64,000 bases of DNA. Source: an uncultured Collinsella sp. (GTDB taxonomy: Bacteria; Actinomycetota; Coriobacteriia; Coriobacteriales; Coriobacteriaceae). Under the pieces are notes generated by a model. It made no database searches. It worked only from the letters and a program-made list of their open reading frames with translations, and was not told the DNA's origin. Of this stretch, positions 34,349 through 59,246 are shown one piece after another. A program made the position numbers and the translations under genes. The stretch spans positions 1 through 64,000 of the forward strand of contig CAKUGF010000005.1 of assembly GCA_934654585.1 (NCBI GenBank), written 5' to 3'. Within the stretch, counting starts at the first letter, position 1, and every line of letters starts with the position of its first letter.

Positions 34349-34395
34349 AGTCATTGGGGACGTTCTTAAACGACGAGTCAAAAGGGACACTCTTT
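34349..34395 (+). repeat. Family D hairpin (GGGGAC core), copy 1
   Basis: TAGTCATT-GGGGACGTTCTTA-AACGACGAGTC, then a second half AAAAGGGACACTCTTT. It is related to 46201, 55342 and 55804. Each has two GGGAC…TCTT units. This copy lies in the rho upstream region with no plus-strand gene before it. Confidence 0.75.
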
Positions 34396-34429
34396 ACAAA
34401 GCCCCGACGAACGCCATCCACCCCTCGCA

Positions 34430-34496
34430 AGTTGCGGTGAAATAGTTCCTGAAAAGCCCGGCAACAGCCCCAAACAGGAACTATTCCACCGCAACT
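34430..34496. repeat. Palindrome family B, copy 3
   Basis: AGTTGCGGTGAAATAGTTCCTG pairs with CAGGAACTATTCCACCGCAACT in the same version as copy 1 (23455); the 23-base centre differs. Confidence 0.85.
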
Positions 34497-34596
34497 CATA
34501 AGGAGAAGACAGGTTTATCCTCAAGCATCGCGGATGCTAAACGACCGAAGAGCAAAAACCATCGGTCTCGGGATCGCCGCGCCACGAAACGCGCTT

Positions 34597-34727
34597 ATCT
34601 ACTACGTTTGCCCCCGGACCCCTGACCATACCCTTGTTTTTTTTTCAAAAACAGCGAGTCCGCTACCTGCGGTTTTAATATCGAACTTTTCGGCATGGTT
34701 CGGGGTATGCGAGTAAACGTAGGAGAT
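34597..34727. repeat. Family K element, copy 1 (131 bp)
   Basis: Terminal inverted repeat ATCTACTACGTTT / AAACGTAGGAGAT. Inside are ACCATACCCT, a T/A run, TACCTGCGGTTTTAAT and GCATGGT. It shares its interior, but not its ends, with 34820-34963. Confidence 0.65.
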
Positions 34728-34773
34728 GGGCACAATTCGTGGCGGACGGGTCCGTGCCAGCCCTCCACGAGAC

Positions 34774-34814
34774 AAAAATGATCCGTTTTCCTCCGTCCCC
34801 AAGGGATCATTTTT
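34774..34814 (-). repeat. Family G hairpin (AAAAATGATCC stem), copy 1
   Basis: The stem AAAAATGATCC / GGATCATTTTT is perfect. The loop on the minus strand reads CTTGGGGACGGAGGAAAAC. A second copy at 43880 contains the pncB stop codon. Confidence 0.8.
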
Positions 34815-37288: not shown

Positions 37289-37774
37289 ATGTTCTCAATC
37301 GGTCAACACGTCATTCATCCGGGTCAGGGAGTCTGCACCGTCGTCGGTTTTAGGGACGACACGCCGCAGCCCATGCTGTTGCTCGAGACCAAGCAGGGAC
37401 ATGCTCAGACGATCCTCATGTACCCCGTGGCGCAGGCCGACCGTTTGCACGCCGCCATCTCCCAGCAAGATGCCGAGCATCTGCTGAGCCACTACGACGA
37501 GCTGGAGTGCGACACCTTTACCGAGCGCAATAGCTCACTCGAAGAGACGCACTTTAAGCAGCAGCTCAAACTGGGTGCGCCCGAGACGGTCCGCGTGGCA
37601 AAGACCATGATGCACCGCATTCGTCAGGCCGAGGAAGCCGGCAAAAAGCCCAGCTCCTACTACATGCGCGTACTCAAAGAGGCAAAGCGCCGCTCCGTTG
37701 AGGAGTTTGCCGTGGCACTGGGCGTTACCGAGGAAGACGCCGAGGCCTGCCTGGCCCAAGCCGCCCTCAACTAA
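37289..37774 (+). CDS. CarD-family transcriptional regulator
   Basis: A 161-residue CarD/CdnL protein. The N-terminal RNA-polymerase interaction domain starts MFSIGQHVIHPGQGVCTVVGF (the family pattern of a conserved HPxxGV). The helical C-terminal DNA-binding half contains TMMHRIRQAEEAGKKP and SYYMRVLKEAKRRSVEEFA. CarD stabilises open complexes at many actinobacterial promoters. GGAGG precedes the ATG. The stop codon is the first base-pairs of a family A hairpin. Confidence 0.9.
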   Translation: MFSIGQHVIHPGQGVCTVVGFRDDTPQPMLLLETKQGHAQTILMYPVAQADRLHAAISQQDAEHLLSHYDELECDTFTERNSSLEETHFKQQLKLGAPETVRVAKTMMHRIRQAEEAGKKPSSYYMRVLKEAKRRSVEEFAVALGVTEEDAEACLAQAALN

Positions 37775-37816
37775 CCTACCAAAAAGGGACAGGTTTATTT
37801 TGGCAGGTTTTATCTG
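37773..37816 (+). repeat. Family A hairpin, copy 1, on the carD stop codon
   Basis: AACCTACC and GGCAGGTT flank AAAAAGGGACAGGTTTATTTT and are followed by TTATCTG. The first AA belongs to the carD TAA. One arm base (A for G) differs from the other copies, giving an A-C mismatch or a shifted pair. Confidence 0.9.
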
Positions 37817-37841
37817 GCCAAACACCGATGAACAACATGCA

Positions 37842-37887
37842 AACGACCGGGTGCTCTGTTTAGTTTGAAGCACCCGGTCGTTTTTTG
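37842..37887 (+). terminator. Terminator of carD
   Basis: AACGACCGGGTGCT pairs perfectly with AGCACCCGGTCGTT around 13 bases, followed by TTTTT. It is a full intrinsic terminator 25 bases beyond the family A hairpin. Confidence 0.93.
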
Positions 37888-38076
37888 AATCATTGTCGGC
37901 ACGTGCGCTATCGGCTTATCTGACCGCACGCGGTCTTTCCAATTACCATTAAAAAGCATCATTTGCAAAATTCAATAGCATTTCGGCAGGTAGCAGGTAT
38001 AGTCGGTGAACTGAATCTCGACAATTGCGCCTCGCGAATGCGGTATCTTCAGCCCATCCAAGCAAAAGGAGGGGCC

Positions 38077-38835
38077 ATGTCGAGACGGCCACGATCAAAG
38101 TCACCCACCGGCTATTATCATGTCACACTGCGTGGCAACGGAGGCCAGTTGCTCTTCGATGACGACTCTGATCGCATCGCGATGCTTCAAATCCTCGATG
38201 CGATTCTCCCCAAGCACAAAATCGAACTTGTCGCGTGGTGCCTTATGGGAAACCACATCCACCTGCTAATAAATGACCCCGACGATCACATGAGCGAGGC
38301 CATACACGCAATTGCCGTCTCATATGCCGGCAGATACAATGCGCACACAGGGCATATTGGACACGTGTTTCAGGAGCGCTTCTGGGATTCGCCGATAAAA
38401 TCCGAAGAGTATTTGCTCGAAGCAATTCGATACGTCCATTTGAATCCTCAAAAGGCCGGGCTGGCAGCATACGATGACTATCCGTGGAGCAGTCACCGAG
38501 AGTACCTAATGGGGGCGAAGTCTCGACCTCATGTCTGCGAAAGCGTTGTCGACGCGCTCTTTCCGACGCCTCTCTCATACCTTCAGTTCATGGAAAGCGT
38601 ACCCGCTCTTCCCTATCGCCCGAGCGCGACGGCCAAAGTAAGCGAGGAAGATCTTAGCGAGTTTGGCAGAGCGATTGTGCAGGCCGTCGCAGGATGTGCG
38701 CCCACGGAGCTCAAATCCGTATCGAAAGCGCTTCGCAACAAGGCGATACTGGCGCTTCGAAAAGAGGGACTGACGATTAAGCAGGTTCAGCTGCTGACCG
38801 GTCTTGGAACGTGGATCATCAAGAATGCCGCATAG
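38077..38835 (+). CDS. RAYT (REP-associated Y1/HUH transposase), intact HUH
   Basis: A 252-residue Y1 transposase from an ATG at 38077 with AAAAGGAGGGG; an earlier in-frame ATG at 37963 is unsupported. It has TGYYHVTLRGNGG, the metal site WCLMGNHIHLLI near residue 60, HVFQERFWDSPI, AIRYVHLNPQKAGL (putative catalytic Tyr) and PWSSHREYL. The C-terminal ~60 residues hold a helix-turn-helix-like LTIKQVQLLTGLGTWIIK. It is single-copy between two family A hairpins (37773, 38925), the arrangement seen for RAYT genes flanked by their cognate palindromes. Confidence 0.9.
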   Translation: MSRRPRSKSPTGYYHVTLRGNGGQLLFDDDSDRIAMLQILDAILPKHKIELVAWCLMGNHIHLLINDPDDHMSEAIHAIAVSYAGRYNAHTGHIGHVFQERFWDSPIKSEEYLLEAIRYVHLNPQKAGLAAYDDYPWSSHREYLMGAKSRPHVCESVVDALFPTPLSYLQFMESVPALPYRPSATAKVSEEDLSEFGRAIVQAVAGCAPTELKSVSKALRNKAILALRKEGLTIKQVQLLTGLGTWIIKNAA

Positions 38836-38884
38836 CATGCTGCATGCGGAGGTCAAATCGTCACACGGAGTCGCGGAAAAATGA

Positions 38885-38921
38885 AAACGCCCCCGCAGCT
38901 AAAACCGCAACGGAGGCGTTT
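38885..38921 (+). terminator. Hairpin after the second RAYT gene
   Basis: AAACGCCCCCG pairs with CGGAGGCGTTT around a 15-base loop, then CCGCAG. There is no T-run after the stem, so it is a weak terminator candidate. Confidence 0.45.
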
Positions 38922-38924
38922 CCG

Positions 38925-38968
38925 CAGATAAAACCTGCCAAAATAAACCTGTCCCTTTTTGGCAGGTT
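38925..38968 (-). repeat. Family A hairpin, copy 2, on the HD-gene stop codon
   Basis: On the minus strand AACCTGCC-AAAAAGGGACAGG…-GGCAGGTT, then TTATCTG. It overlaps the TAA of the HD-domain gene (38967-38969) by two bases. Confidence 0.92.
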
Positions 38969-39554
38969 ATTCGCGGTCGGGGGCGAAGGACTGCATGGCC
39001 GCGATGGTGCGGTCGAAGAGCTCGGGAAGCTCCCAACCCAGCATCTCGGCGCCCTGCGAAATCACATCACGAGAGCATCCGGCGGCAAAGCGCTTGTCCT
39101 TGAACTTTTTCTTGAGCGACTTGGTCGTAAAGTCCATGACGCTTTTGCTGGGACGCATGATGACGGCGGCGCCGATCAGGCCGGTAAGCTCATCACAGGC
39201 AAACAGGATCTTTTCCATCTGCAGCTCGGGCTTGGGCAACGAGGTGTTGAAGTCCGACGTGTGCGTCTGGATGGCACGGATGAGCTCGGGCGATGCACCC
39301 TCGCCCTCGAGGATCTCGGCCGCATAGATCGTGTGGTTCACGGGGTCGTCCTCATGCTCTTCCCAATCCAGGTCGTGCAGCAGGCCGACGATACCCCAGA
39401 ACTCCTCGTTCTCGGGATCGAACTCGCGCGCAAAGTAGCGCATAGTGCCCTCGACGGTTTCGCCGTGCGTGATGTGGAATGGGTCCTTGTTGTGCTCGTT
39501 GAGCAGTTCGAACGCGCGGTCGCGGGTGATTCCGGCGTTAAGCGTCTGAGACAT
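38967..39554 (-). CDS. HD-domain protein
   Basis: A 195-residue HD-superfamily protein. The metal ligands are visible: ITHGETVEGTM (first His), GLLHDLDWEEH (HD) near 58, VNHTIYAAEI, and AIQTHTSDF with the later His/Asp. Members are phosphohydrolases of nucleotides or alarmones; this small stand-alone form has no assigned substrate. Ribosome binding site TTGGAGGTATTGCC precedes the ATG at 39554. Its 3' end merges with a family A hairpin, and the terminator role is probably supplied by that hairpin. Confidence 0.82.
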   Translation of the reverse strand: MSQTLNAGITRDRAFELLNEHNKDPFHITHGETVEGTMRYFAREFDPENEEFWGIVGLLHDLDWEEHEDDPVNHTIYAAEILEGEGASPELIRAIQTHTSDFNTSLPKPELQMEKILFACDELTGLIGAAVIMRPSKSVMDFTTKSLKKKFKDKRFAAGCSRDVISQGAEMLGWELPELFDRTIAAMQSFAPDRE

Positions 39555-39681
39555 GGCAATACCTCCAACTGAGTCGGTGCTAAGTCACGGTGTCACTATC
39601 GTATATCTCTGTGCCGCAAGCCGAAAGACCGAAATGGCATGCGGAGAAAAAGCCGGGTGAACGAGTCGCCCGGCAAAACCG

Positions 39682-39725
39682 CAGATAAAACCTGCCAAAA
39701 TAAACCTGTCCCTTTTTGGCAGGTT
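39682..39725 (-). repeat. Family A hairpin, copy 3, on the proA stop codon
   Basis: Same 44-base sequence as copies 2 and 4. It overlaps the first base of the proA stop complement (39725-39727). It lies between the HD gene's promoter and proA's 3' end. Confidence 0.92.
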
Positions 39726-41011
39726 TAGGGGCGGACCTGGCCGGTGCCGCGGAGCTTGTATTTGTAGGTGGTGAGGGCCTCGGCGGCAAAGGGGCCGCGG
39801 GCGTGGAGCTTTTGGGTCGAGATGCCGATCTCGGCGCCCAGGCCAAACTCGCCGCCGTCGGTGAAGCGCGTGCTGGCGTTGGCGTACACGGCCGAGGCGT
39901 CGACCGCATCCAGGAAGCGCTCGCAAGCGTCCTTGTCCTCGGCAACGATAGCCTCGGAATGCATGGTGCCGTAGCGGTTGATGTGCGCGATGGCCTCGTC
40001 CTCGTCGGCCACGACCTTCACACTCATCTCGAGCGCCAGGTACTCGCGGCCCCAGTCCTCCTCGGTTGCGACAACGTAGTCGTCACCCTCGACAAGCCCG
40101 GCCGTAGCACATGCGGCGCAGGTGGCCTCGTCGCCGTGGATCAACACGCCGTGGTCATGCAGCACGGCCACGACCGCAGGCAGGAACGAATCTGCCACGG
40201 CACGGTCGACCAGCAGTGACTCGGCAGCGTTGCACACGCCCACGCGCTGGGTCTTGGCGTTGACGATAATGTTGAGCGCCTTGTCAAAATCGGCGGATTC
40301 ATGCACGTAGATATGGCAGTTGCCCGTGCCCGTCTCGATCACCGGCACCAACGACTCGCGCACGCAGCGCTGGATCAGGCCCGCGCCGCCGCGAGGAATG
40401 AGCACGTCGACGATACCGCGGAGCTTCATGAGCTCGCCGGTGGCTTCGCGGTCGGTGGACTCGATCATCGAGACGGCCTCGCGCGGGAAGCCCTGAGCCT
40501 CCAGCGCATCGGCCAGCAGCTCGGCAATCATGGCGCACGAGTGATAGGCCAGTGAGCCGCCACGCAGAATGCAGGCGTTGCCGGTGCGGATGCAGATGCC
40601 CGCGGCGTCGGCCGTCACGTTGGGGCGTGCCTCGTAGACCATGGCGACCAGGCCCAGCGGCACGCTCACGCGGGTGAGGTCCACGCCGCTCGCAAGCACG
40701 CGGTGGTCGAGCACAAGTCCGACAGGATCGGGCAGCTCGGCAAGTTTCTCCAGGCCGGCGGCCATGCCCTCGACGCGCTCGGGCGTCAGCAGCAGGCGAT
40801 CGAGCAGACCGGCCGAGGTCCCCGCATCGCGCGCGGCGGACATATCAAGCTCGTTGGCGGCGACGATGGAGTCGACACCGTCGCGCAGCGCTGCAGCCAT
40901 GGCGCGCACGGCCTCCTGGCGCTGCCCATCGCTCACCGTGGCAAGCGCGCCCGAGGCGGCCTTGGCCTCAACAGCAAGATCGTGGACATACGTGGCTATA
41001 TCGACCGACAT
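39725..41011 (-). CDS. proA: Glutamate-5-semialdehyde dehydrogenase (gamma-glutamyl phosphate reductase)
   Basis: A 428-residue ProA, the NADPH-dependent second step of proline synthesis. It has SVPLGLVAMVYEARPNVTAD near 125, GNACILRGGS, and the catalytic Cys in TQRVGVCNAAESLL near 265, followed by FTDGGEFGLGAEIGISTQK. Length is normal. AGAAAGGGCCG before the ATG. proB lies 1.7 kb away on the same strand, separated by a divergent peptidase, so the usual proBA operon is split. Confidence 0.96.
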   Translation of the reverse strand: MSVDIATYVHDLAVEAKAASGALATVSDGQRQEAVRAMAAALRDGVDSIVAANELDMSAARDAGTSAGLLDRLLLTPERVEGMAAGLEKLAELPDPVGLVLDHRVLASGVDLTRVSVPLGLVAMVYEARPNVTADAAGICIRTGNACILRGGSLAYHSCAMIAELLADALEAQGFPREAVSMIESTDREATGELMKLRGIVDVLIPRGGAGLIQRCVRESLVPVIETGTGNCHIYVHESADFDKALNIIVNAKTQRVGVCNAAESLLVDRAVADSFLPAVVAVLHDHGVLIHGDEATCAACATAGLVEGDDYVVATEEDWGREYLALEMSVKVVADEDEAIAHINRYGTMHSEAIVAEDKDACERFLDAVDASAVYANASTRFTDGGEFGLGAEIGISTQKLHARGPFAAEALTTYKYKLRGTGQVRP

Positions 41012-41124
41012 AGGCGGCCCTTTCTCCTAGAAGTTTGCCAACCATGGTAGCCGATTTGCGCATGCCCTCGCGCGCGGCGGTAGAATTGGTCAACACGAAA
41101 CACCGCGACGAACGGAAGTACCGT

Positions 41125-42543
41125 ATGGCCCTCATCACTTCGTACCACGTCCCCGGCCTGTATGTCGAGGATCACAGCATCGATGTCCCGTTGGATTGGC
41201 GCGGCCTGGAGCCGATGCTGCTGGCCGTCGGCAGCACCATGCGCCGCGGCGCCATGCCGGCGCCCATCGCCGGCGCGCCCGAGAGCATCAAGCTCTTCTA
41301 CCGCGTGGTCTGCGCGCCCGACCGCATCAACGACGACCTGCCGCTACTCCTGTTTTTGCAGGGCGGCCCCGGCGGCGAGAGCCCGCGCCCGCTGTCGCCC
41401 ACGAGTGACGGATGGATCGAGGAGGCTGTCAAACATTTCCGCGTGGTCCTGCCCGACCAGCGCGGCACGGGGCGCAGCAGCTGCGTGGACGGGCGCACGA
41501 TCGCGGCTCTGGGCGAGCGCGCGACGGCCGCCGGCTCCGACGCGGCACGCTCGCAGGCGGACTTCCTCAAGCGCCATCTCGCCAGCTCCATTGTGCGCGA
41601 TTTTGAGTATCTGCGCCTGGTGGGCTTTGGCGGCAAGCCGTGGGTCACGCTCGGCCAGAGCTACGGCGGCTTTTTGACGCTGAGTTACCTGTCGCTCTTC
41701 CCCGAGGGCGTGGCGGCGAGCTTTACCTGCGGCGGCATCCCCCACGTCCCGGCGAGCGCCAGCGAGGTCTACGCGCACACCTTCCCGCGCATGGCCGCCA
41801 AGACGCAGCAGTATTACGACCGCTACCCCGCCGACGTCGAGCGCGTGGCGGCCCTTGCCGATGCGCTCGAAGAGCAGAAGCCCGTGCTGCCCGACGGCTC
41901 GCCAATGACGGTGGAACGCCTGCAGCTTATGGGCAGCGACTTTGGCATGAAGCCGAGCTTTGAGCGCATGCATTGGATTATCGATCACGCTTTTGTTGAC
42001 GGCGACGGCACGCTGAGCTGCGGCGCCTCAGTGTCTGATAGCTTTTTGATGCGCGCATTCGAGCGCACCAACACGCGCACAAATCCGCTGTACTGGACGC
42101 TGCAGGAGTTCATCTACGCCGACGGCGATACCATGCCGATTCGTTGGGCCGCAGCCGAGGAGAAGGCCCATCGTGCCGAGTTCGACACGCTCGCGCGCCC
42201 GCTCATGTTTACCGGCGAGGCCATGTTCCCGTGGATGTTTGAGCAGATGCCCGAACTTAAGCCCTTCAAGCCGGCGATGGACCTGCTGATGGAGGACACC
42301 AGCTGGGACAAGATCTACGACCCGCAGCGCCTGTCCTGCAACGAGGTGCCGCTCCAGGCCGCGGTGTACTTCGATGACATGTACGTGGACTCGGGCATGC
42401 AGCTCGACACGCTCAGCCGCGTGGGCAACTCGCACGCCTGGGTAACCAATGAGTTTGAGCACGACGGCCTGCACGGCAGCGTGGTGTTCAAGCACCTCTT
42501 CGACGAAGCCCTCAACCGCGGAGACCTACGCCGCATCTTCTAG
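41125..42543 (+). CDS. Prolyl-aminopeptidase-like alpha/beta hydrolase (peptidase family S33)
   Basis: A 472-residue alpha/beta hydrolase. The oxyanion motif LFLQGGPGGES lies near residue 80, PDQRGTGRSS near 115, the nucleophile GQSYGGFLTLSY near 178, and a C-terminal NSHAWVTNEFEHDGLHG with the likely acid and His. The GGPG + DQRG + G-x-S-Y-G-G set is diagnostic of S33 proline iminopeptidases. It would free N-terminal proline or similar residues from peptides in the cytoplasm. It sits between proA and proB, divergent from proA. ATG at 41125 with CGGAAG. Confidence 0.87.
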   Translation: MALITSYHVPGLYVEDHSIDVPLDWRGLEPMLLAVGSTMRRGAMPAPIAGAPESIKLFYRVVCAPDRINDDLPLLLFLQGGPGGESPRPLSPTSDGWIEEAVKHFRVVLPDQRGTGRSSCVDGRTIAALGERATAAGSDAARSQADFLKRHLASSIVRDFEYLRLVGFGGKPWVTLGQSYGGFLTLSYLSLFPEGVAASFTCGGIPHVPASASEVYAHTFPRMAAKTQQYYDRYPADVERVAALADALEEQKPVLPDGSPMTVERLQLMGSDFGMKPSFERMHWIIDHAFVDGDGTLSCGASVSDSFLMRAFERTNTRTNPLYWTLQEFIYADGDTMPIRWAAAEEKAHRAEFDTLARPLMFTGEAMFPWMFEQMPELKPFKPAMDLLMEDTSWDKIYDPQRLSCNEVPLQAAVYFDDMYVDSGMQLDTLSRVGNSHAWVTNEFEHDGLHGSVVFKHLFDEALNRGDLRRIF

Positions 42544-42560
42544 CGAAGGAAAGCACCCGC

Positions 42561-42595
42561 AAGTAGATTTTTGGGACATGCCTAGAAATCTACTT
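42561..42595 (+). repeat. Family E hairpin, copy 1, after the S33 peptidase gene
   Basis: AAGTAGATTT and AAATCTACTT enclose TTGGGACATGCCTAG. It starts 18 bases after the stop codon, on the coding strand of that gene, and is followed by TTGCC. Confidence 0.88.
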
Positions 42596-42632
42596 TTGCC
42601 GCAGGGAGACGGCGGCACGTCATATACACAAA

Positions 42633-42665
42633 GGTAGATTTCTAGGCATGTCCCAAAAATCTACC
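42633..42665 (-). repeat. Family E hairpin, copy 2, after proB
   Basis: Inverted copy of 42561: on the minus strand GGTAGATTT-TTGGGACATGCCTAG-AAATCTACC. It begins 25 bases past the proB stop, again on the coding strand of the gene it follows. The end pair is GG/CC instead of AA/TT, a compensatory difference. Confidence 0.88.
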
Positions 42666-42690
42666 AACGGTGGCGTGCAGCGTCGACCCG

Positions 42691-43879: not shown

Positions 43880-43918
43880 AAAATGATCTGTTTTCCTCCA
43901 TCCCCTTCGGATCATTTT
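43880..43918 (-). repeat. Family G hairpin, copy 2, containing the pncB stop codon
   Basis: Stem AAAATGATC / GATCATTTT. The minus-strand loop is CGAAGGGGATGGAGGAAAACA, a variant of the GGGGACGGAGG core at 34774. The TGA stop of pncB (43912-43914) lies inside the stem. Confidence 0.8.
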
Positions 43919-46112: not shown

Positions 46113-46186
46113 AGTCTTTTTGGGACGGGGCTTTTTTGACTACCCATTCGCCCGATGATTTTTCTGGGACGGGGATTAAAAAATCA
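46113..46186 (+). repeat. Two adjacent GGGACGGGG hairpin-like units
   Basis: TGATTTTT-CTGGGACGGGGATTA-AAAAATCA (46156-46186) is a clear hairpin. AGTCTTTTT-GGGACGGGGC-TTTTTTGACT (46113-46141) pairs only at its ends and is followed by ACCC. A partial relative of the second is at 59210. Confidence 0.65.
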
Positions 46187-46200: not shown

Positions 46201-46253
46201 CAAAGACTGTCCCCAGCAACTAGTCGTTTAAGAACGTCCCCAAAGACTAATCT
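46201..46253 (-). repeat. Family D hairpin, copy 2, after the radical SAM gene
   Basis: On the minus strand AGTCTTTGGGGACGTTCTTA-AACGACTAGTT, then GGGGACAGTCTTTG. It starts three bases past the stop at 46256, on the coding strand. Confidence 0.82.
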
Positions 46254-50251: not shown

Positions 50252-50293
50252 GGAACGGGCCCGCTGGCAGATAGTTGCCAGCGGGCCCGTTCC
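50252..50293. repeat. Perfect 18-bp inverted repeat between trpS and the MGMT-like gene
   Basis: GGAACGGGCCCGCTGGCA and its exact complement are separated by six bases (GATAGT). There is no T-run on either side, so it is not a normal terminator. The remaining gap (50136-50486) holds nothing else recognised. Confidence 0.75.
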
Positions 50294-50486
50294 CGAAGTA
50301 CACCGTTGAATCGCACAGAGGGGAGGAATGCGAATCAAACTCAACAGGGCGGGCTTTTTCATCGCCTATGGCCTGCTCCGTTGCTGAATACAATATAGTT
50401 CACCGTGGTTTACTTTCAGGCGTCAAATTACCCCGCCACATTGTCTCCATAAGTTAACCCAGGTAAACCTTCGCAGACCTAAACCG

Positions 50487-50807: not shown

Positions 50808-50953
50808 CACTTGCTCCTTCCTGCCAAGGCCAGCATAAAGCAAATGATCCCCCGGAGAGAGCGAGATTGCAAATCGTGCGGCCTCCGTGCAACCGACGAA
50901 ACACAATCCCGCCGTCCCCGAGGGATCAAATGACATGGCAGGCAGCGTTTGCC

Positions 50954-50997
50954 CAGATAAAACCTGCCAAAATAAACCTGTCCCTTTTTGGCAGGTT
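50954..50997 (-). repeat. Family A hairpin, copy 4, after degV
   Basis: Identical 44-base core to copies 2 and 3. It ends two bases before the degV stop complement (51000-51002), on the coding strand of degV. Confidence 0.92.
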
Positions 50998-50999
50998 GG

Positions 51000-51854: not shown

Positions 51855-51985
51855 AGTGAATCCTTTCTTGCGCGTACGGCCTCAGGCCGCTCGGCGCGGG
51901 AATTTCGACAGCAAAGCCCTAACGCGACCTGCGCGCTCAAATGGGACTGTGCAATTGTTGGATGAAAGCAAGGGCCGGCGAGACG

Positions 51986-52435
51986 CTACATCTCGCGCAG
52001 GGTGTTGAGAATCGTGCGCAGCGACGCATACATCTGCTCGCGCTGCTCCACGCCCATGGCCTTACCGGTGGTATCGAGCACCTCGCGGATGATGCGGTCG
52101 GCCTCGTTCATGCTCTCGCCGCCCAGGGCGGTTAGGCGCACCGGGGCACGGTACTTGACGGCGGCATCGCCCGAATCGTCGACCTCGACGTAGCCACCCT
52201 CCTCCAAGTGAGCCAGCGTGCGCGAAACGGCCGCGCGGGTCACGCCGGCCATGCGGGCAAGGTCGGCACCGGTCAGGCCGTCCTTGCTGCGCTCCAGATA
52301 GTACAGGCACATAACGTCGGAGCCTTTGAGGCCAAGCCTTGCGCCCTCGGACGTCTTGATGCGCTGGATCTCCTTGTAGAGCCCGCTAATCAGTCCGACA
52401 AAATCCTCAAAACGTGTCTCGTCGTTCTGCTGCAT
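51986..52435 (-). CDS. MarR-family transcriptional regulator
   Basis: A 149-residue winged-helix regulator. The dimer helix is N-terminal; the DNA-reading part is LTGADLARMAGVTRAAVSRTLAHLEEGGYVEVDD near 53-85, with a wing at YRAPVRLTALG. It lies 131 bases upstream of degV on the same strand and might control it (inference). Effector unknown. Confidence 0.85.
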   Translation of the reverse strand: MQQNDETRFEDFVGLISGLYKEIQRIKTSEGARLGLKGSDVMCLYYLERSKDGLTGADLARMAGVTRAAVSRTLAHLEEGGYVEVDDSGDAAVKYRAPVRLTALGGESMNEADRIIREVLDTTGKAMGVEQREQMYASLRTILNTLREM

Positions 52436-52539
52436 GGGAGACGACCGCCTTTCGCTTGCATGATGCTAACGGGTAAACATCTTAGCCGCACCGGGCGGTC
52501 GCGCTACCCCAATATCCCATTTGTTAACCCCTTAACATA

Positions 52540-52580
52540 AAAACCACCACAAAGGGGACAGGCACCTTTGTGGTGGTTTT
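52540..52580 (+). repeat. Family C hairpin, copy 1
   Basis: AAAACCACCACAAAGG and CCTTTGTGGTGGTTTT form a perfect stem. The loop is GGACAGGCA. It lies in the gap between the MarR gene and the B3/B4 gene, on the strand opposite to both; it is thus an exception to the stop-codon rule. Confidence 0.9.
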
Positions 52581-52608
52581 GACCGGCGAACATGATCCGC
52601 AGGCGTCG

Positions 52609-53328
52609 CTACAGCTCCACACGGGGATTGTCGTGGGTCACAAGCGTCTTGACGACAACCGTTGCACCCAGATAGCGCTCAAGCAACTCAGCGAGACGAT
52701 CGATCGCAGCCTGGCAATCCCCCATCCGCACAGGCTCCACGCACTCAATCGCAAGGAATGCATCCGCAGAGTCATCGGACAGCGCCGTACGAACGCCATC
52801 GCGCCAGTTCCAGCAACGGCACACAGCACCCGCGTCATCAATGTAGGCAAGCTCGCCGGGGAGTGTCGGATCATCAGCCTCCTCGCCAAGCGGCAGGAAC
52901 GCGTCGCCGCCGTCAGTCACCGCCAGGCGCAGATTGCCCTCGATCACATGCAAATCTTCACCGCCCACGGGCAGCGCGTAGGTCAGCGACACTGTGTTGT
53001 AGATATCCACCGCGGGCGTGATGTGGCCCACCGGTTTGCCTTTGAGCACGCGCTTGAGCAGGTTCTCGATTGAGCAACGCGCGCCCTTTTTGGTTTTGAA
53101 CTGACGATACGCCTCGCGCCATGCCTTGACCGGCACATTTTCGCTGATGGTGTCGCTCGTCAGATGACGCTCCGCATCGATATTGGCACGATCGAGCAGC
53201 GCGGCAATGGCGTCCACATCCTCCCGGGGAATCTGAGCCGCGGACTTCATGCCCTTTACGACCACAACGCCGATAGCCGCCTGCGGAAACAGCTCCCAAA
53301 ACGAATCCTCGGCAATAAAACTCTTCAT
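52609..53328 (-). CDS. B3/B4 domain protein (phenylalanyl-tRNA synthetase beta-like)
   Basis: A 239-residue stand-alone B3/B4 domain protein. It shows VKAWREAYRQFKTKKGARCSIENLLKRV near 70-95, a PAVDIYNTVSLTYALPVGGEDL near 110, and the Asp-rich FLPLGEEADDPTLPGELAYIDDAG. These are the parts of PheT that edit mischarged tRNA; free-standing versions may deacylate misacylated tRNA or free amino-acid esters (not proven). ATG at 53328 with GGGAGAGC. The acidic C-terminus is ordinary. Confidence 0.85.
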   Translation of the reverse strand: MKSFIAEDSFWELFPQAAIGVVVVKGMKSAAQIPREDVDAIAALLDRANIDAERHLTSDTISENVPVKAWREAYRQFKTKKGARCSIENLLKRVLKGKPVGHITPAVDIYNTVSLTYALPVGGEDLHVIEGNLRLAVTDGGDAFLPLGEEADDPTLPGELAYIDDAGAVCRCWNWRDGVRTALSDDSADAFLAIECVEPVRMGDCQAAIDRLAELLERYLGATVVVKTLVTHDNPRVEL

Positions 53329-53371
53329 GTGCTCTCCCTTCACAGCGTGCGCCCGAGCCCGGGCACCTAAA

Positions 53372-53431
53372 CAAAAAGCGCCCTTACGACGGCCACCTTC
53401 AAAGTCCTACGGTGCCGCCACAAGAGCGCTT
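53372..53431 (-). terminator. Terminator downstream of pckA
   Basis: On the minus strand AGCGCTCTT and AAGGGCGCT pair across a 36-base structured loop and are followed by TTTTTG. It lies after the family C hairpin, upstream of the B3/B4 gene, and could also act as a leader attenuator of that gene. Confidence 0.6.
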
Positions 53432-53500
53432 ACGCTGCCCCCATCCGGAGAAGGGGGCGATATGTCAGGCGTATTGTAACCCGAGTCATCCCCGCGAGCG

Positions 53501-53539
53501 AAACCACCACAAAGGTGCCTGTCCCCTTTGTGGTGGTTT
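53501..53539 (-). repeat. Family C hairpin, copy 2, on the pckA stop codon
   Basis: On the minus strand AAACCACCACAAAGG-GGACAGGCA-CCTTTGTGGTGGTTT. The first two bases are part of the pckA stop TAA (53538-53540). It is the inverted twin of 52540. Confidence 0.92.
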
Positions 53540-55208
53540 ACAGGCGGATTCCCAGCAGGCCGCGGCCACGATGACGGGCCTCGACGGGCACTTGGGCGTG
53601 CGGGCCGGCAGCCTTTACGGACTCGGGCAGGTGCGAATACTTCTTCTCGAAGTTCTCCTCGAACATCACAGCCAGGTTGTGCGCGGCCTCGTCGTAGCGC
53701 GCGGTGCTCTGCCAGTACTGGCGCGGCACCAAGATGCCGTCGGGCACGCCGTGGCACGTGGTGGGAATGTCGACGTTAAAGATATCGTCGTGCACGAACT
53801 CGCTGTCCTCGATAGTGCCGTCGAGGGCGCGCGCGACCAGGGAGCGCGTGTAGGCCAGCTCGATGCGATGACCCACGCCGTAGCCGCCGCCGATCCAGCC
53901 GGTGTTGACCAGGTACACGCGCGTACGCCCGTCGGCAATGCGCTCGCCGAGCATCTTGGCGTAGACCATGGGGTCGAGCGGCATAAACGGCTCGCCGAAC
54001 AGCGAGGAGAACGTGGGCGTGGGCTCGGTGACGCCGACCTCGGTGCCGGGGATCTTGGCCGTAAAGCCCGTCACAAAGTGATACATGGCGGCGTCGGCCG
54101 TCAGGCGCGAGATGGGCGGCAGCACGCCAAAGGCATCGCAGGTCAGGAACAGCACGACACTCGGGGTGGTGCCCATGCCCTTGGTCCACGCGTTGGGGAT
54201 ATGCTCCACCGGGTAGGCCACGCGCGTGTTGTGCGTGATCGAAATGTCATCGTAATTGGGCTTGCGGTTCTCGTCGAGCACCACGTTTTCGCAGATGGCG
54301 CCAAAGCGGACGGCGTTGAAGATCTCGGGCTCGTGGAACGCGTCCAGGCCCTCGCACTTGGCGTAGCAGCCGCCCTCGATGTTGAAGATGCCCATGTCGG
54401 ACCAACCGTGCTCGTCGTCGCCGATCAGCAGGCGCGTGGGGTTGGCCGAAAGCGTGGTCTTGCCGGTGCCGGACAGGCCAAAGAACACGGCGGTCTCGTG
54501 CGTGACGGGGTCCATACTGGCCGAGCAATGCATGGGCAACACGTCGTCCTCGACGGGCAGCAGGTAGTTCATAACGCTGAAGATGGACTTTTTGATCTCG
54601 CCGGAGTAGCCGGTGCCCGCGACCAGGATCACACGCTCTTGGAAGTTGATGACCACAGCAGCACTGGAGTTAAGACCCTTGATCGCAGGGTCGCACTGAT
54701 AGCCGGGCGCGGCAAGCACACAGAAGTCCGGCTCGCCGGTTCGCGCGATTTCGCGGGCGAGCGGGCGAGCAAGCATCTGCTTAATGAAGAGTGCCTGGCT
54801 GGCACGCTCGCAGGCGACGAGCAGGCGGCGCGTGTGGTTACGGTCGGCACCGGCCATACCGCGGGTAACGAACACATCGCGCTCATTGAGGTAGTCGACG
54901 ATACCGGACTTGATGGCCTCGTAGCTCTCGACAGATAGCGGGCGGTTGACGGCGCCCCAGGCGATCTTGTCGTGCACGTCGGCCGTGTCGACGATAAAGC
55001 GGTCGTTGGGCGAGCGGCCGGTGCGCTCCCCCGTCTCGATCACCAGCGCGCCGTTAGAGGCCATACGGCCCTCTTCGCGGCGGATGGCATACTCAACGAG
55101 CTCGGCCACTGGCAGGTCAACCAGCAGGCGAGGCTGGTTCTCGGCGGGGTCTTCGACGAGCGTTAGGCCAAAGTTGGACAGTACTTCTGCAGGGGTAACA
55201 CCAGGCAT
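53538..55208 (-). CDS. pckA: Phosphoenolpyruvate carboxykinase (ATP)
   Basis: A 556-residue ATP-type PEPCK interconverting oxaloacetate and PEP. It has GERTGRSPNDRFIVD near 58, the kinase-1a P-loop FFGLSGTGKTTLSA near 260, DDEHGW (kinase 2), NTRVAYPVEHIPN near 345 and the adenine loop GWIGGGYGVGHRI near 470. It probably links glycolysis to a C4 fermentation branch in anaerobes. GGAGGCC precedes the ATG. The stop codon is built into a family C hairpin. Confidence 0.96.
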   Translation of the reverse strand: MPGVTPAEVLSNFGLTLVEDPAENQPRLLVDLPVAELVEYAIRREEGRMASNGALVIETGERTGRSPNDRFIVDTADVHDKIAWGAVNRPLSVESYEAIKSGIVDYLNERDVFVTRGMAGADRNHTRRLLVACERASQALFIKQMLARPLAREIARTGEPDFCVLAAPGYQCDPAIKGLNSSAAVVINFQERVILVAGTGYSGEIKKSIFSVMNYLLPVEDDVLPMHCSASMDPVTHETAVFFGLSGTGKTTLSANPTRLLIGDDEHGWSDMGIFNIEGGCYAKCEGLDAFHEPEIFNAVRFGAICENVVLDENRKPNYDDISITHNTRVAYPVEHIPNAWTKGMGTTPSVVLFLTCDAFGVLPPISRLTADAAMYHFVTGFTAKIPGTEVGVTEPTPTFSSLFGEPFMPLDPMVYAKMLGERIADGRTRVYLVNTGWIGGGYGVGHRIELAYTRSLVARALDGTIEDSEFVHDDIFNVDIPTTCHGVPDGILVPRQYWQSTARYDEAAHNLAVMFEENFEKKYSHLPESVKAAGPHAQVPVEARHRGRGLLGIRL

Positions 55209-55341
55209 GGGGCCTCCTTTAAAAGCGCGTCACGAGGGCGCGCGCTTTACTCACGTAAAGCCCGTTGTACCCGATATGCAAAAACGTTTTTGCGGCAACG
55301 GCAGAGCATCCCGCCCAACGGTCAAAATTCGCAGGTAAGCG

Positions 55342-55391
55342 GACTAGTCGTTGGGGACGTTCTTAAATGACTAGTCGTTGGGGACACTCTT
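55342..55391 (+). repeat. Family D hairpin, copy 3
   Basis: GACTAGTCGTT-GGGGACGTTCTTA-AATGACTAGTC, then GTTGGGGACACTCTT. It lies upstream of pckA, opposite in strand. Confidence 0.82.
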
Positions 55392-55480
55392 GGAGCGATC
55401 AGCCGCAAAGGAGTGTCCCAAAGTGCCGGCACCTGGGGACGTTCCTAAAGTGCCGGCACAATAGGAACGTCCCCAGGTGA
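55392..55480. repeat. Compound palindromes with GGGGACGTTCC core (family F)
   Basis: AGTGCCGGCAC-CTGGGGACGTTCCTAA-AGTGCCGGCAC (55422-55459) is a stem of two identical palindromes. It overlaps a second hairpin CCTGGGGACGTTCCTA / TAGGAACGTCCCCAGG (55432-55477). GGAGTGTCCC (55411-55420) pairs with GGGACACTC of the D copy just before. Confidence 0.75.
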
Positions 55481-55522
55481 CGGGTTGGGCTGTTTTTGAT
55501 GACTGCCCGAGGGGGCCGTGGT

Positions 55523-55742
55523 CAAAAAACGGCAAATATGAGTACTGTTGCCATTATGGTTACATTTATTTTGCTTAAAAAAGAGGCTCCTGATGAGATT
55601 CATTCGCATCAGGAGCCTCTGTTACTGAACATTTGGGGAGATACAGCAGTTCTTATGCTCGAACGGAGCGTCAAATGACCTGTAATTAGATCGAAATCGC
55701 TGCTACTAAAATAGTAACAGTACTCATATTTGCCATTTTTTG
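55523..55742. mobile_element. MITE-like element, 220 bp, with 27-bp terminal inverted repeats
   Basis: Ends: 55523-55549 and 55716-55742 are inverted repeats with one mismatch in 27 (CAAAAAAYGGCAAATATGAG, then TACTGTT). Inside lies a 14-bp hairpin, AGAGGCTCCTGATG / CATCAGGAGCCTCT (55580-55620 region). It is AT-richer than its surroundings, with no transposase. No target duplication is clear. It could be mobilised by a transposase elsewhere, or be a long structured RNA. Confidence 0.65.
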
Positions 55743-55803
55743 CCCACGGCCATATACAGACGCCCTGTCGAGCAGCGCAAAACGGCTTCAATGATCAAAA
55801 TCA

Positions 55804-55854
55804 GAAGACTATCCCCGACGACTAGTCGTTTAAGAACGCCCCCAATGACTAGTC
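55804..55854 (-). repeat. Family D hairpin, copy 4, after the lactate permease gene
   Basis: On the minus strand GACTAGTCATTGGGGGCGTT, CTTAAACGACTAGTC, then GTCGGGGATAGTCTTC. It has drifted cores (GGGGGC, GGGGAT). It begins four bases after the stop at 55859, on the coding strand. Confidence 0.8.
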
Positions 55855-55858
55855 ATGG

Positions 55859-57430
55859 CTACAGCGGCAGGTTTTGGCCGAGCATGGCGATGGCGCTCAT
55901 GAGGACCAGCATGCCGGCAGCGTAGGGCAGGACGGCGCCCAGGAGCTCGGCGTCCTTGCCGCGCACGTGCACGGCAGCCAGGCCGATCGCGAGCGTCTGC
56001 GGCGAGATCATCTTGCCGGCAGCAACGCCAAGCGCATTCAACGCGACCATCCAGTAGTCGCTCACGCCCAGCGCCGTGGCGGCCTGGCTCTGAATGGGAC
56101 CAAACAGCATGCCCGAGGACGTGCCCGAACCGGTCACGAACGCACCGACCGCACCAATCCACGGAGCCAGAATCGGATACAGACCGCCAGCCACCGCAAT
56201 ACAAAATGCACTGATTGAGGAGATCATGCCCGCATAGCCCATCACCTTGGCGCAACCCAGCACCGAAAGCATGGTGATCACCGTCGGCATCATCTGCTTG
56301 AAGGTCGCGGCCAGCACCTCGCCCATCAGGCGCGGCGAAGCACCCTGAATCGCGCCGCCGACAAACGCCGCCAGGAAAATCCAGACACCCGGCGTGTTGA
56401 TCCAAGAAAACGTAAGCGTACCGGGGTTCTCGCCGCAATACACCTGCACGTGGCTCGCAAACGGCGCGAGTGCGGCGTGCACGGCGGGCACCAGGTTGGA
56501 GGTACCCAGCAGCAGCACAAAGATCAGGATGAAGCACGACCAGGCCGAAAGCGCCGACTTAACGGTAAGTTGCTCGCCGGCATCGATATTCATGTGAAAG
56601 CGCGCATCCAGGTGGCCGGACTTCTCGGCGCGCATGGCAAGCGCGGCGGTCAGCGCGAGCGACACGATGGAGCCCACGACCACAGCAAGCTCGGGGCCCA
56701 CAAACATGGCGACGACCAAGGCCGCGCCGACAAACGACACGCCAGAGAGCAGCGCGATACCGGCAACGCCGCGCAGGCGCTCGCCCACGCTCGCAACGTT
56801 GCCCTGATCATCGGCAACACGGCCCGCGACCAGCGCAATAAGCAGTGGCATGACCACAAAGAAGGGCGCGAGCTGCACCAGCTGAACGGTCGCCAGATGC
56901 AGAGAATCCAGGCCCACCAGGTCGGCAACGGACACCGTGGGAATGCCGATGGAGCCGTAGGGCGTGGGCACGCCGTTGGCAAGCAGGCAAATAAGCACGG
57001 CAGGCACAGCCTCAAAGCCCAGGCCCGCAAGCATGCCGGCGGGGATGGCAACGGCGGTACCAAAACCGGCCATGCCCTCCATAAAGCCGCCGAAGCACCA
57101 GGCCACGAGCAGCGCCAGCAGACGACGGTCGCTGCTGATGGAGGTAATCATGCTGCCGATCACATCCATGGCACCCGTGCGCACGCACAGGTTATACGTA
57201 AATACCGCGGCGATAATCACCAGCACGATGGGCCACAGCGCCATCAAAAAGCCCTCGAGCGAGGCGGTCGCGATCTGCGCCACCGGCAGATGCCACCACG
57301 CAAAGGCGAGCACGCACGAAAGGGCAAACGAGCCGATGGCGGCTTTCCAGGCCGGCCATTTAAAGCACAGCAGCATCACGACGAGCCAAATGATCGGCAC
57401 AAGGGCCAGCAAAAACGCGGCGACATCCAT
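55859..57430 (-). CDS. L-lactate permease (LctP family)
   Basis: A 523-residue LctP/GlcD-type transporter with about 13 membrane helices. It has PIVLVIIAAVFTYNLC near 70, CFGGFMEGMAGFGTAVAIPAGML near 115 (family EGxAGFG), NGVPTPYGSIGIPT near 155, and VTGSGTSSGMLFGPIQ near 425. It exchanges lactate or glycolate with protons. ATG at 57430 with AAGGAG. Lactate use or export fits a fermenting gut anaerobe. Confidence 0.93.
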   Translation of the reverse strand: MDVAAFLLALVPIIWLVVMLLCFKWPAWKAAIGSFALSCVLAFAWWHLPVAQIATASLEGFLMALWPIVLVIIAAVFTYNLCVRTGAMDVIGSMITSISSDRRLLALLVAWCFGGFMEGMAGFGTAVAIPAGMLAGLGFEAVPAVLICLLANGVPTPYGSIGIPTVSVADLVGLDSLHLATVQLVQLAPFFVVMPLLIALVAGRVADDQGNVASVGERLRGVAGIALLSGVSFVGAALVVAMFVGPELAVVVGSIVSLALTAALAMRAEKSGHLDARFHMNIDAGEQLTVKSALSAWSCFILIFVLLLGTSNLVPAVHAALAPFASHVQVYCGENPGTLTFSWINTPGVWIFLAAFVGGAIQGASPRLMGEVLAATFKQMMPTVITMLSVLGCAKVMGYAGMISSISAFCIAVAGGLYPILAPWIGAVGAFVTGSGTSSGMLFGPIQSQAATALGVSDYWMVALNALGVAAGKMISPQTLAIGLAAVHVRGKDAELLGAVLPYAAGMLVLMSAIAMLGQNLPL

Positions 57431-57608
57431 GGGTAAAAACTCCTTGGTACCGCGCAAGCGGCATCGGGGGGTCACAAAACCTCAACAGAATACCGCACGC
57501 TTACCGACAAATTGATGCCGCCCGCCGAATTTATTGAACAACCCGTTCAAAAACACGAATTGACACCTCCGCGGCTATACTAGAGCGCAGCAATAGAAAG
57601 GAACCGCC

Positions 57609-59189
57609 TTGAGTATCACGCCCCTCGATAGCATCCGCCGCGCCATCGCCCGCCGCAACGGCGTCGCCGACCCCACCGTGCTGAGCGACGGGGCCCACGG
57701 CCAAGGAGGACGCATCGAGAACGGCTTATTCCCCGCCTCACACACGGCCGAGGAGCTCGCCCGCATCCAGGAGCTGAGCCAGCGCAATGCCGGCGGCCCC
57801 GACAGCAGCCAGACCGCGCGTCGCCGCAAGCAAGACAGTGACCGCCAGCCCGGCCCTATCCACCGCATGGTCAACGCCTGGTGGAACCGCCTGCTCGGAG
57901 CCGTCTACGGCGGCGGGTTTTCCACGCAGGAAGCCGAATACGAGGAGCACGCCACCCGCCGCGACTACCTGTGGAACACCCTGGGCACCGCCGTATGGGG
58001 CCTGGCGTTTCCCCTACTCACCATCGTGTCCACGCAGCTCGTGGGCGCCGAGGAAGCCGGCAAGTTCTCGATGGCCTTCGTCACCGGCACGCTCATCATG
58101 ATCGCGTGCAACTACGGCGTGCGCAATTTCCAAGTCTCGGACATCGACGAAAAGACCAGCTTCGCCTCCTACCAGCTCAACCGCTGGCTTTGCGGAGCGC
58201 TCGCGCTGGCGTGCGGCCTGGCGTACAGCAGCGCCCGCGGCTACGATGCGCAGATGGCAACGATCGGCCTGGGCGTCTACCTCTATAAGGTGATCGACGG
58301 CATCGCCGACGTGTACGAGGGCCGCCTGCAACAGGCCGACAAGCTCTACTTGGCCGGCATGAGCCAAACGCTGCGCTCCGCCGGCGTCCTCGCGGTCTTT
58401 ACCGTGGCGCTGTTCCTCACACGCAGCATGCCCATCGCCGCCATGGCCATGGGTATCACGGCCATCGCCTCGCTCGTGCTGGTCACCGCGCCGCTCGCCC
58501 TGCTCGAAACCGAAAAATCGCGCCGCGTGAGCCTGCGCGAGGTCGGCCGCCTGTTTGTCCAGTGCGCCCCGCTCTTTGGCGCGCTGTTCCTGTTCAACCT
58601 GATCGAGAGCATGCCCAAGTTTGTGATGGAAGGCACACTGGCCTACAAATACCAACTGTACTTTAATGCACTGTTCTTTCCGGCGCAGGCTATTTTGCTG
58701 AGCATTGGATTTATCTATAAACCGCAGCTCCTGCGCCTGTCGAGCATCTGGGCAAACCCGCGCAAGCGTCGCCGCTTTGACTTGATTATTGTTGCCGTCA
58801 TGGCGCTCGTCGTCGTCATTACCGGCCTGTGCGCCGCATTTATGGCGGGCCCCGGCATCCCCATTATGAACGCCATGTACGGCCTCAACTTTGAGCGCTA
58901 CCGCATGCTGGCGCTGCTGATGGTCGTCGCCGGCGGCGTCACCGCGGCCATCGACTTTATCTACGCCATCATCACGGTACTGCGCCACGCCGGCGACGTC
59001 ACCAAGATCTACCTGATCTGCTTTGCCGTGAGCGTGGTTCTGCCGGTGATACTAATCAATCTATTCGGCCTGACGGGCGCTGTGGTGAGCTACCTGGCGG
59101 TCATGGCCCTGCTCCTGGTGCTGCTGATTATCGAATACGCCCACATCCGCCAACGCATCGAACGCGACCGCAACCCGTACGGGGCCTAA
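57609..59189 (+). CDS. Polysaccharide flippase-like membrane protein (MOP superfamily)
   Basis: A 526-residue protein from a TTG start at 57609 (AAAGGAA seven bases before; no ATG in frame nearby). A hydrophilic N-terminal ~115 residues precedes about 12 membrane helices starting at YLWNTLGTAVWGLAFPLLTIVSTQLVG. It has AGKFSMAFVTG, QLNRWLCGAL and DGIADVYEGRLQQ near 230. The shape is like Wzx/oligosaccharide flippases. It likely exports lipid-linked glycans. The long N-terminal extension is unusual. Confidence 0.78.
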   Translation: MSITPLDSIRRAIARRNGVADPTVLSDGAHGQGGRIENGLFPASHTAEELARIQELSQRNAGGPDSSQTARRRKQDSDRQPGPIHRMVNAWWNRLLGAVYGGGFSTQEAEYEEHATRRDYLWNTLGTAVWGLAFPLLTIVSTQLVGAEEAGKFSMAFVTGTLIMIACNYGVRNFQVSDIDEKTSFASYQLNRWLCGALALACGLAYSSARGYDAQMATIGLGVYLYKVIDGIADVYEGRLQQADKLYLAGMSQTLRSAGVLAVFTVALFLTRSMPIAAMAMGITAIASLVLVTAPLALLETEKSRRVSLREVGRLFVQCAPLFGALFLFNLIESMPKFVMEGTLAYKYQLYFNALFFPAQAILLSIGFIYKPQLLRLSSIWANPRKRRRFDLIIVAVMALVVVITGLCAAFMAGPGIPIMNAMYGLNFERYRMLALLMVVAGGVTAAIDFIYAIITVLRHAGDVTKIYLICFAVSVVLPVILINLFGLTGAVVSYLAVMALLLVLLIIEYAHIRQRIERDRNPYGA

Positions 59190-59209
59190 CGCCCACCTTG
59201 GTGCATTGA

Positions 59210-59246
59210 GGGCAGCTAATTTGGGACGGGGCTATTTTGACTACCC
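59210..59246 (+). repeat. GGGACGGGG hairpin remnant after the flippase gene
   Basis: GGGCAGCTAATTT-GGGACGGGGC-TATTTTGACTACCC pairs only partly. The right half equals that at 46122-46144. It begins 20 bases after the flippase stop on the same strand. Confidence 0.55.

Follow-up and report, generated by a model that had tools for sequence, protein, structure and literature searches.

The DNA analyzed here is a 64-kb window (61% GC) from an uncultured Collinsella sp. (contig CAKUGF010000005.1, positions 1 to 64,000), which contains hairpins of several sets (A and C to H) that have a GGGAC core in the loop, together with two genes of the HUH/Y1 transposase class. Two of the set A hairpins, at 37773 (+) and 38932 (−), bracket one of these genes in inverted orientation, and the whole forms an element of ∼1.2 kb. 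The initial annotation had listed 17 hairpin sites, four of them in set A; all four were confirmed as hairpins, although the transposase gene lying between the first two had gone unmentioned.

The transposase of this element matches the Pfam family Y1_Tnp (E 1.2e-9, 38.8 bits) and is 83% identical, over 299 amino acids, to a protein of a relative, L056. An AlphaFold model of the residues coded by 38077-38832 (pLDDT 90) ends in helices, and its best fold match in PDB (E 1.4e-7) is 4er8, a structure of TnpA_REP in complex with a REP hairpin. Moreover, a profile of 14 low-scoring long Y1 proteins gave TnpA_REP 4er8 as its single PDB match (E 1.8e-5), and ten relatives matched the NCBIfam model REP_Tyr_transpos with E values of 9e-11 to 3e-19 and with 42-69 bits, all under the 80-bit cut-off. 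Profiles of a C-terminal helix-turn-helix (HTH) gave weak matches in 7 of 10 relatives, and the window protein has no such match at E 0.05.

The ends of the element were delimited by comparing set A copies at 24 sites with differing flanks, some of which are orthologues. The 5′ edge of the unit is sharp at the hairpin foot, the 5′ flank being unconserved at these 24 sites, and the core region reads GGGACAGG. Behind the 3′ arm follows a 15-nucleotide (nt) tail, TTATCTGGGNAAACG, conserved at 0.71-1.00 per base except for one base at 0.50. On the GGGAC strand, this tail is 3′ of the hairpin, and hence on the other strand it is 5′ of the hairpin foot; it contains GTAG or GTGG on neither strand. 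Since both tails of the element point inward, its ends are terminal inverted repeats (TIRs) composed of hairpin plus tail. A conserved tail like that of set A was not found in set C (24 sites). The second, coreless hairpin upstream of the transposase gene (Table 1) has a similar inverted repeat as its counterpart at the corresponding place in L026 and L056.

Low-scoring long Y1 proteins are present in Collinsella and its kin, as seen in a search with Y1_Tnp; genomes with any match to this family, true IS200 copies included, numbered 26 of 39 in one search and 37 of 43 in another. The flanks of many such genes show the same hairpin core on other stems. We examined the core by taking each of the 1024 possible 5-mers in turn and counting the hairpins with a score of at least 8 that carried it upstream on the gene strand and downstream in inverted orientation. 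GGGAC ranked first of the 1024 words (i) in 64 loci from the order, with 17 upstream and 11 downstream (28 in total; mean, 2.1); (ii) in 56 loci of a second, independent scan of genomes (80 loci minus 20 redundant ones and 4 with short flanks), with 20 and 22 (42 in total; mean, 1.8); and (iii) in 69 representatives that are <60% identical, mostly from Coriobacteriia, with 20 and 18 (38 in total; mean, 2.15; 99th percentile, 13.5), where the runner-up words, GACAG and GGACA, overlap GGGAC. In the opposite orientation, the upstream and downstream counts were 3 + 3, 11 + 13, and 7 + 9 for the 64 loci, the 56 loci, and the 69 representatives, respectively, the 24 in the 56 loci being largely near-palindromic loops that score on both strands. 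The orientation of the hairpins at the transposases is that expected for TIRs.

Counted per locus, 28 of the 69 representatives have a GGGAC hairpin with a score of at least 8 at either end, and 41 have one at score 7 with GGG[AT]C; of 127 distinct transposases, 71 are accompanied by a core hairpin with a score of at least 7, and 31 have core hairpins at both ends. The 56-locus set includes a few Bacillota, of which Mesobacillus (L210) shows yet another stem at both ends; in Alkaliphilus (L207), a core hairpin was not found at the transposase ends. Hairpins resembling those of set H in the window lie beside transposases elsewhere: a hairpin with the same core and a stem near that of the second type of set H flanks the transposase in L057 and L078, and hairpins related to the first type of set H lie beside transposases in L014, L051, L069, and L070. 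A variant core, GGGGTC or GGGTC, also occurs beside Y1 genes (L059, L075, and L077).

We propose that the hairpins are the terminal elements of single-strand transposases of the HUH/Y1 RAYT kind (TIRYT type), as well as solo or paired dispersed copies of these elements, and we put the probability of this proposal at roughly 0.8. The enzyme would fold one strand of an element end into a hairpin during replication, its catalytic domain would bind the loop at GGGAC (or, on the opposite strand, at GTCCC) together with the tail as a guide, and it would cut at the hairpin foot. Hairpin units could then be copied in trans to new places, often the 3′ ends of genes, and after loss of the enzyme some of them may have been retained as gene-end structures. 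These steps, from hairpin formation, reading, and cutting to the spread of solo ends, are modeled on IS608, ISDra2, and TnpA_REP of the HUH/Y1 family, as described in PMC6006769. A transposition origin would explain how unrelated hairpin families with one shared word come to lie in one genome.

To assess the hairpins of the window, we searched it for hairpins with GGG[AT]C at their top, with score cut-offs of 7 and 9 and with 10 dinucleotide shuffles as the control. At a score of at least 9, the window holds 11 such hairpins versus 0-1 per shuffle (0, 0, 0, 0, 0, 0, 1, 1, 0, 0), and 10 of the 11 are sites listed by the initial annotation, the exception lying at 25579; at a score of at least 7, it holds 19, with 3-11 in the shuffles. 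A core-agnostic scan of the window returned 43 unique hairpins, in which GGGAC/GTCCC was the top loop 5-mer (9 of 43, 8.3-fold). Twelve of the 17 listed sites were recovered at a score of at least 7 (A 4/4, C 2/2, E 2/2, F 1/1, D 1/4, G 1/2, and H 1/2), and two more, G 43880 and D 55804 (hairpin 55820-55854), whose cores have drifted by one base, were detected by the core-agnostic scan, which brings the hairpins to 14. At the three others, namely D 34349 (z −0.15), D 46201 (z −1.04), and H 59210 (z +1.32), the claimed stem was absent on DNA folding, and these look like decayed or half-units. The folds of G 43880 (z −0.87), H 46156 (z −1.24), and G 34774 (z −1.90) are weak. An Rfam search of the window returned tRNAs only. 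Thus, 14 of the 17 sites stand as hairpins and 3 lack the stem claimed for them, and the strong core hairpins of the window are far above chance. The comparison with shuffled sequence that the initial annotation had suggested went in its favor, since shuffles fail to reproduce the window hairpins and GGGAC outranks the other 1023 cores beside transposases.

The stems are unrelated between sets, as had been claimed, and the two set E copies differ by AA/TT versus GG/CC, as had been described. Within sets, base pairing was counted over the copies, near-palindromic ones being entered on both strands, and in set C 94% of cells were paired versus 44-66% when slid. Two-sided stem changes are scarce (6 cells at 3 of 16 pairs in set C, 1 in set G, 2 in set H, and none in set A), and the 7 of set F all fall at a single outer pair. 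Sets D and F consist of a 27-bp unit with a self-complementary word (GACTAGTC, TGCCGGCA) that is gained or lost whole among relatives, and their hairpins arise because this word recurs in the unit. In the region 55342-55860 and its counterparts in relatives, exact 27-bp units of both sets come and go at orthologous sites.

Table 1. Hairpins and HUH/Y1 transposase genes of the window
Feature	Position	Strand	Remarks
Set A hairpin, upstream outer end of element	37773..37809	+	Inward tail to ~37824; fold z −2.3
Second hairpin upstream of transposase gene, without core	37841..37883	+	Core-agnostic scan
HUH/Y1 transposase gene, RAYT/TIRYT type	37936..38835 (approx.)	+	NHIH and RYVHLNP motifs; listed open reading frame starts at 37963
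Set A hairpin, downstream outer end of element, inverted	38932..38968	−	Fold z −5.3
Set A solo hairpin	39688..39726	−	Overlaps stop codon of Aldedh gene
Set A solo hairpin	50961..50997	−	Behind DegV gene
Set C hairpin	52540..52580	+	Fold z −7.5
Set C hairpin	53501..53539	−	At PEPCK gene stop
Set D hairpin, 27-bp unit array	55342..55376	+	Fold z −3.3
Set D hairpin	55820..55854	−	Drifted core GGGGGC
Set D, apparently decayed	34349..34379	+	Claimed stem not formed on folding
Set D, apparently decayed	46218..46252	−	Claimed stem not formed on folding
Set E hairpin	42561..42595	+	Fold z −4.0
Set E hairpin	42633..42665	−	Sole set hairpin in simple terminator scan of 41000-60500
Set F hairpin	55423..55459	+	Fold z −5.4
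Set G hairpin	34774..34814	−	
Set G hairpin	43880..43918	−	Drifted core GGGGAT
Set H (second type) hairpin	46156..46186	+	
Set H (first type), apparently decayed	59210..59246	+	
Weak hairpin	59247..59279	+	Variant core GGGGTC; fold not better than shuffles
Second Y1 transposase gene	20421..21266	−	HUH broken (DRVH)

While the core is constant, the stems turn over. Twenty-six of the 31 elements with core hairpins at both ends were testable for a common stem, and in 25 of the 26 both ends share it. Between elements, stem sharing, defined as a common 6-nt run, was seen in 37 of 37 pairs whose transposases are at least 75% identical (many of these being orthologues), in 6 of 36 pairs at 50-75%, and in 17 of 867 pairs below 50%, versus 0.8% for shuffled arms. 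These figures indicate that enzyme and stem are passed on together and that a diverging enzyme comes to have another stem, GGG(G)AC being retained throughout. Nor do the stems reduce to a single ancestral sequence, an outcome that the initial annotation had named as fatal to its idea. That idea, a single mechanism for which GGGAC is constant and the stems change, is suggested once the HUH/Y1 transposases are added. A mechanism that "tolerates any stem" is found for no single enzyme: each element has one stem at both ends.

A stem that changes along with its enzyme might also reflect a two-part reading, in which the catalytic domain reads GGGAC and the C-terminal HTH reads the stem, so that the stem shifts with the recognition helix. 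The HTH scaffold is conserved across the transposases, with variable residues after "TGIG," and four elements with the helix GRNI (L148, L164, L177, and L183) share GAGACA stems, although L041, which has the same helix, does not. We consider this two-part reading unlikely, since the HTH and recognition-helix windows gave partial correlations with stem similarity of only about −0.11 to 0.07 when overall identity was controlled, and the best window anywhere in the protein reached a partial r of 0.18 (permutation p 0.074), on a stem measure that is crude. This test covered 60 transposases (the 71 that bear hairpins, minus 8 with hairpins judged doubtful by hand and 3 with arms of <6 nt), 43 of them under 75% identity, and it gave no support for the recognition helix as the stem reader.

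The setting of the hairpins bears on a further alternative. By crude gene calls, 54 of 100 distinct hairpin sites follow a stop codon by no more than 60 nt, with 28 of these on the same strand, 16 on the opposite strand, and 10 between convergent genes, so that the strand bias behind genes is weak (28 same versus 16 opposite). Further, all relatives with both flanks located (19 of 19) have a hairpin at the set C site 52540, with the core damaged in a few. Solo copies behind stop codons and the retention of the 52540 site make a later role at gene ends plausible. The hairpins might even have spread or arisen as intrinsic terminators or stabilizers of mRNA 3′ ends, with the GGGAC loop incidental, and the A-rich starts and T-rich ends of the A, C, and G stems would fit such a function as well. 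This alternative is nonetheless improbable: terminators do not need a fixed loop word, GGGAC hairpins lie inverted at both transposase ends, and T tracts are absent from sets D, F, and H. A terminator scan of 41000-60500, whose loop limit of 8 misses most sets, gave 20 terminator-like structures, no more than in shuffles (16.6, standard deviation 4.3), and listed only one set hairpin, 42633.

A loop word on changeable stems also resembles the target of CsrA, which is GGA presented in a hairpin loop, whatever the stem. If the hairpins were RNA landing sites of a CsrA-like protein, the GGA within the loop and the position of many hairpins on the coding strand behind genes would be accounted for. 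However, a CsrA match was found in 0 of 43 Collinsella genomes, by a search whose control detects the protein in E. coli, B. subtilis, and T. maritima, and the location of the hairpins at gene 3′ ends and around transposases was likewise counted against it. With CsrA lacking in 43 of 43 Collinsella genomes other than that of the window, RNA reading of the CsrA type is close to refuted, and we give a CsrA-like reader hardly any credence.

The genomes that carry sets A, C, D, E, and F are nearly the same ones for each set, 21-23 of the 43. Set A has 16-40 copies per genome in 22 genomes and none in the other 21; set C has 18-38 copies in the 22 set A genomes and one copy in a 23rd; and sets D, F, and E have 2-15, 0-13, and 0-5 copies per genome, respectively. 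The search pattern for set G was too strict, requiring T where many copies have A, and its single match gives no distribution. Among the matches listed, inverted pairs of set A (+ then −), 69 or 124 bp apart as might be expected of REPINs, occur in G014, G040, G010, G041, G018, and G001, possibly at orthologous sites, and the majority of the listed copies are single. In plasmid collections, 24 places matching parts of the element fall on one record, NZ_OY725717.1 (899,693 bases), which is listed as a plasmid and is probably a chromosomal contig, its length being that of contig G008:C6 with the PEPCK and proB homologues, and phage collections gave one distant protein match.

Several observations weigh against our proposal that the hairpins are transposase ends and their copies. 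Besides the window, three of the 22 set A genomes (G004, G018, and G054, with a shortened frame in G018) yielded the set A transposase, the Y1 matches of the other 19 having been examined in part; none of the 127 distinct transposases has a stem of set C, D, E, F, or G; and core hairpins were not found at the ends of the remaining 69-set representatives. No clean empty site was found for a hairpin insertion, the flanks differing by larger indels. Moreover, core hairpins do not track the enzyme in the sampled stretches, where the fold over shuffles runs the wrong way: there are 16 in 393 kb from six Y1-less Collinsella (3.4 times shuffles) and 18 in 300 kb from four Y1-bearing Collinsella outside the aerofaciens group (2.2 times shuffles), many of these in both samples looking like chance stems, compared with 5 in 100 kb of the aerofaciens group and 11 in the 64-kb window. 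The corresponding shuffle means per 100 kb are 1.2, 2.7, 0.2, and 0.6. GGGAC hairpins, such as AACCTCGATTTGGGGACAGT, were also noted in L214-L216 of G006, a genome in which a Y1 gene was not found.

Hairpin families for which no enzyme was seen could be relics, or other enzymes of the class could act on them. In the latter direction, we tentatively consider, as a possible though rather doubtful extension, that the fixed loop word is the signal and the stem an exchangeable scaffold, and that every enzyme of the class could therefore mobilize any GGGAC hairpin in trans. If true, such loop reading would explain several unrelated stem families in one genome, as well as the presence of set A in 22 genomes with its own transposase seen in 3. 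We know of no other HUH enzyme that reads the loop and ignores the stem, if the enzyme does so.

Comparison of one locus across relatives places hairpins at the borders of rearrangements. In the interval from the gene that ends at 37774 to the Aldedh gene, G018 and G054 have the same order as the window, namely set A hairpin, transposase, set A hairpin, HD gene, set A hairpin; in G012, the transposase is absent from the HD-gene locus. Both anchors are present in 19 relatives, and 15 of these have the HD gene in inverted orientation with a C-type hairpin on each side, the C core having drifted in some and a further insertion being present in one. In G011 (L121), the HD gene is deleted between two C hairpins, and a hybrid hairpin combines the left arm of one C copy with the right arm of its partner. 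The same gene borders are thus held by hairpins with different stems in different species, and in the aerofaciens group an inversion, a deletion, and insertions around a single gene all have hairpins at their borders. Compared with the 15 relatives, the window region 37773-39726 keeps the hairpin orientation relative to the HD gene despite the swap of A for C. In L121, an insertion of ∼1.4 kb, possibly with a CAG duplication, sits in the loop of the hybrid hairpin. At the site where the window has set A (50954), L108 and L110 have a set G-like hairpin. Two further genes enclosed by hairpins were considered as transposases and rejected: the gene enclosed by the C hairpins in the window codes for a B3/4 domain protein, and that between two D-type copies in L061 and L062 codes for a HAD hydrolase.

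The second Y1 gene of the window (20421-21266, −), at which a flanking core hairpin was not found, has been retained in the aerofaciens group, in most cases in a single genomic context (relatives L018, L019, L021, L022, L024, L025, L033, L034, L054, L055, L056, L064, L071, and L080). The catalytic tyrosine is lost in 10 of its 15 copies, and the HUH motif is altered in 8 (DRVH in the window). Its median pairwise ratio of nonsynonymous to synonymous substitution rates is ∼0.30, and 0.36 among the tyrosine-less copies, compared with 0.12 in another Y1 family of the group. Judged from these sequences, this gene is perhaps a transposase kept as a DNA-binding protein.

Among known systems, the IS200/IS605 family has in common with the element the HUH/Y1 domain, subterminal hairpins, and a single-strand mechanism, as far as described in the available text of PMC6006769. 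However, true IS200 genes of the genus score 110-144 bits versus 38.8 for the window protein, and no core hairpin with a score of at least 8 was found within ∼1.5 kb on each side of the IS200 loci L001-L004, one of score 7 lying beside L001. The REP/RAYT and REPIN systems resemble the Collinsella hairpins in being short and dispersed in many copies (as are sets A and C in each of 22 genomes), in having a Y1 enzyme gene with hairpins, in the 4er8 fold, and perhaps in forming inverted pairs. REP and IS200 guides lie 5′ of the hairpin, as does the set A tail on the complementary strand. Unlike REPs, set A lacks GTAG/GTGG at the hairpin foot (a test that covered sets A and C), and its constant word is in the loop, with a conserved tail pointing inward.

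The TIRYT/TIRtron was named by Di Nocera et al. (2013; PMC3733652), who described, in the text available, a RAYT-like Y1 gene flanked by TIRs, some of them with GGGGWSAS; the TIR families are moderately repeated, often as dimers or clusters, and some TIRs are partly or wholly self-complementary. In view of these inverted repeats, the statement of the initial annotation that no such case was known calls for correction. The words Collinsella and Eggerthella are absent from the main text of that paper as available. Like a TIRYT, the window element has a Y1 gene of RAYT rather than IS200 character with TIRs at both ends. It differs from those described in the accessible text in that the motif is in or at the top of a hairpin loop, across many transposases and with stems that turn over with lineage, and in that several families occur per genome, most of them with no transposase of their own in sight. 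Of 71 hairpins, 23 fit GGGGWSAS exactly; GGG(G)AC[AG]G is the more frequent form, and many of the others are GGGACRG, which is one G shorter, or GGGGACG.

In the survey of Quentin et al. (2018; PMC6006769), 20 of 26 TIRYTs were assigned to TnpA_Y1 subclass 2.1, long Y1 proteins with a C-terminal HTH, and GGGG[AT][CG]A[CG] is reported in most TIRYT inverted repeats; for this subclass, the available text states that REP-like sequences were found neither by automatic nor by manual search. The automatic search described there relied on GT[AG]G at the hairpin foot and on loops of 2-5 nt for short hairpins, and loop-core hairpins would be missed by such criteria. In its main text as available, the words Coriobacter and Actinobacteria do not appear. 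Literature listings, with most subscription journals and all preprints outside their scope, contained no title on Collinsella hairpins among the matches listed. With these hairpins, the poorly studied TIRYT/subclass 2.1 transposases, for which a large survey had reported no DNA partner, would gain a defined one. Relative to the TIRYT literature, the new features are the core in the hairpin loop, the turnover of stems, the presence in one genome of several families for which no transposase was seen, and the set A unit of hairpin plus inward tail of ∼15 nt.

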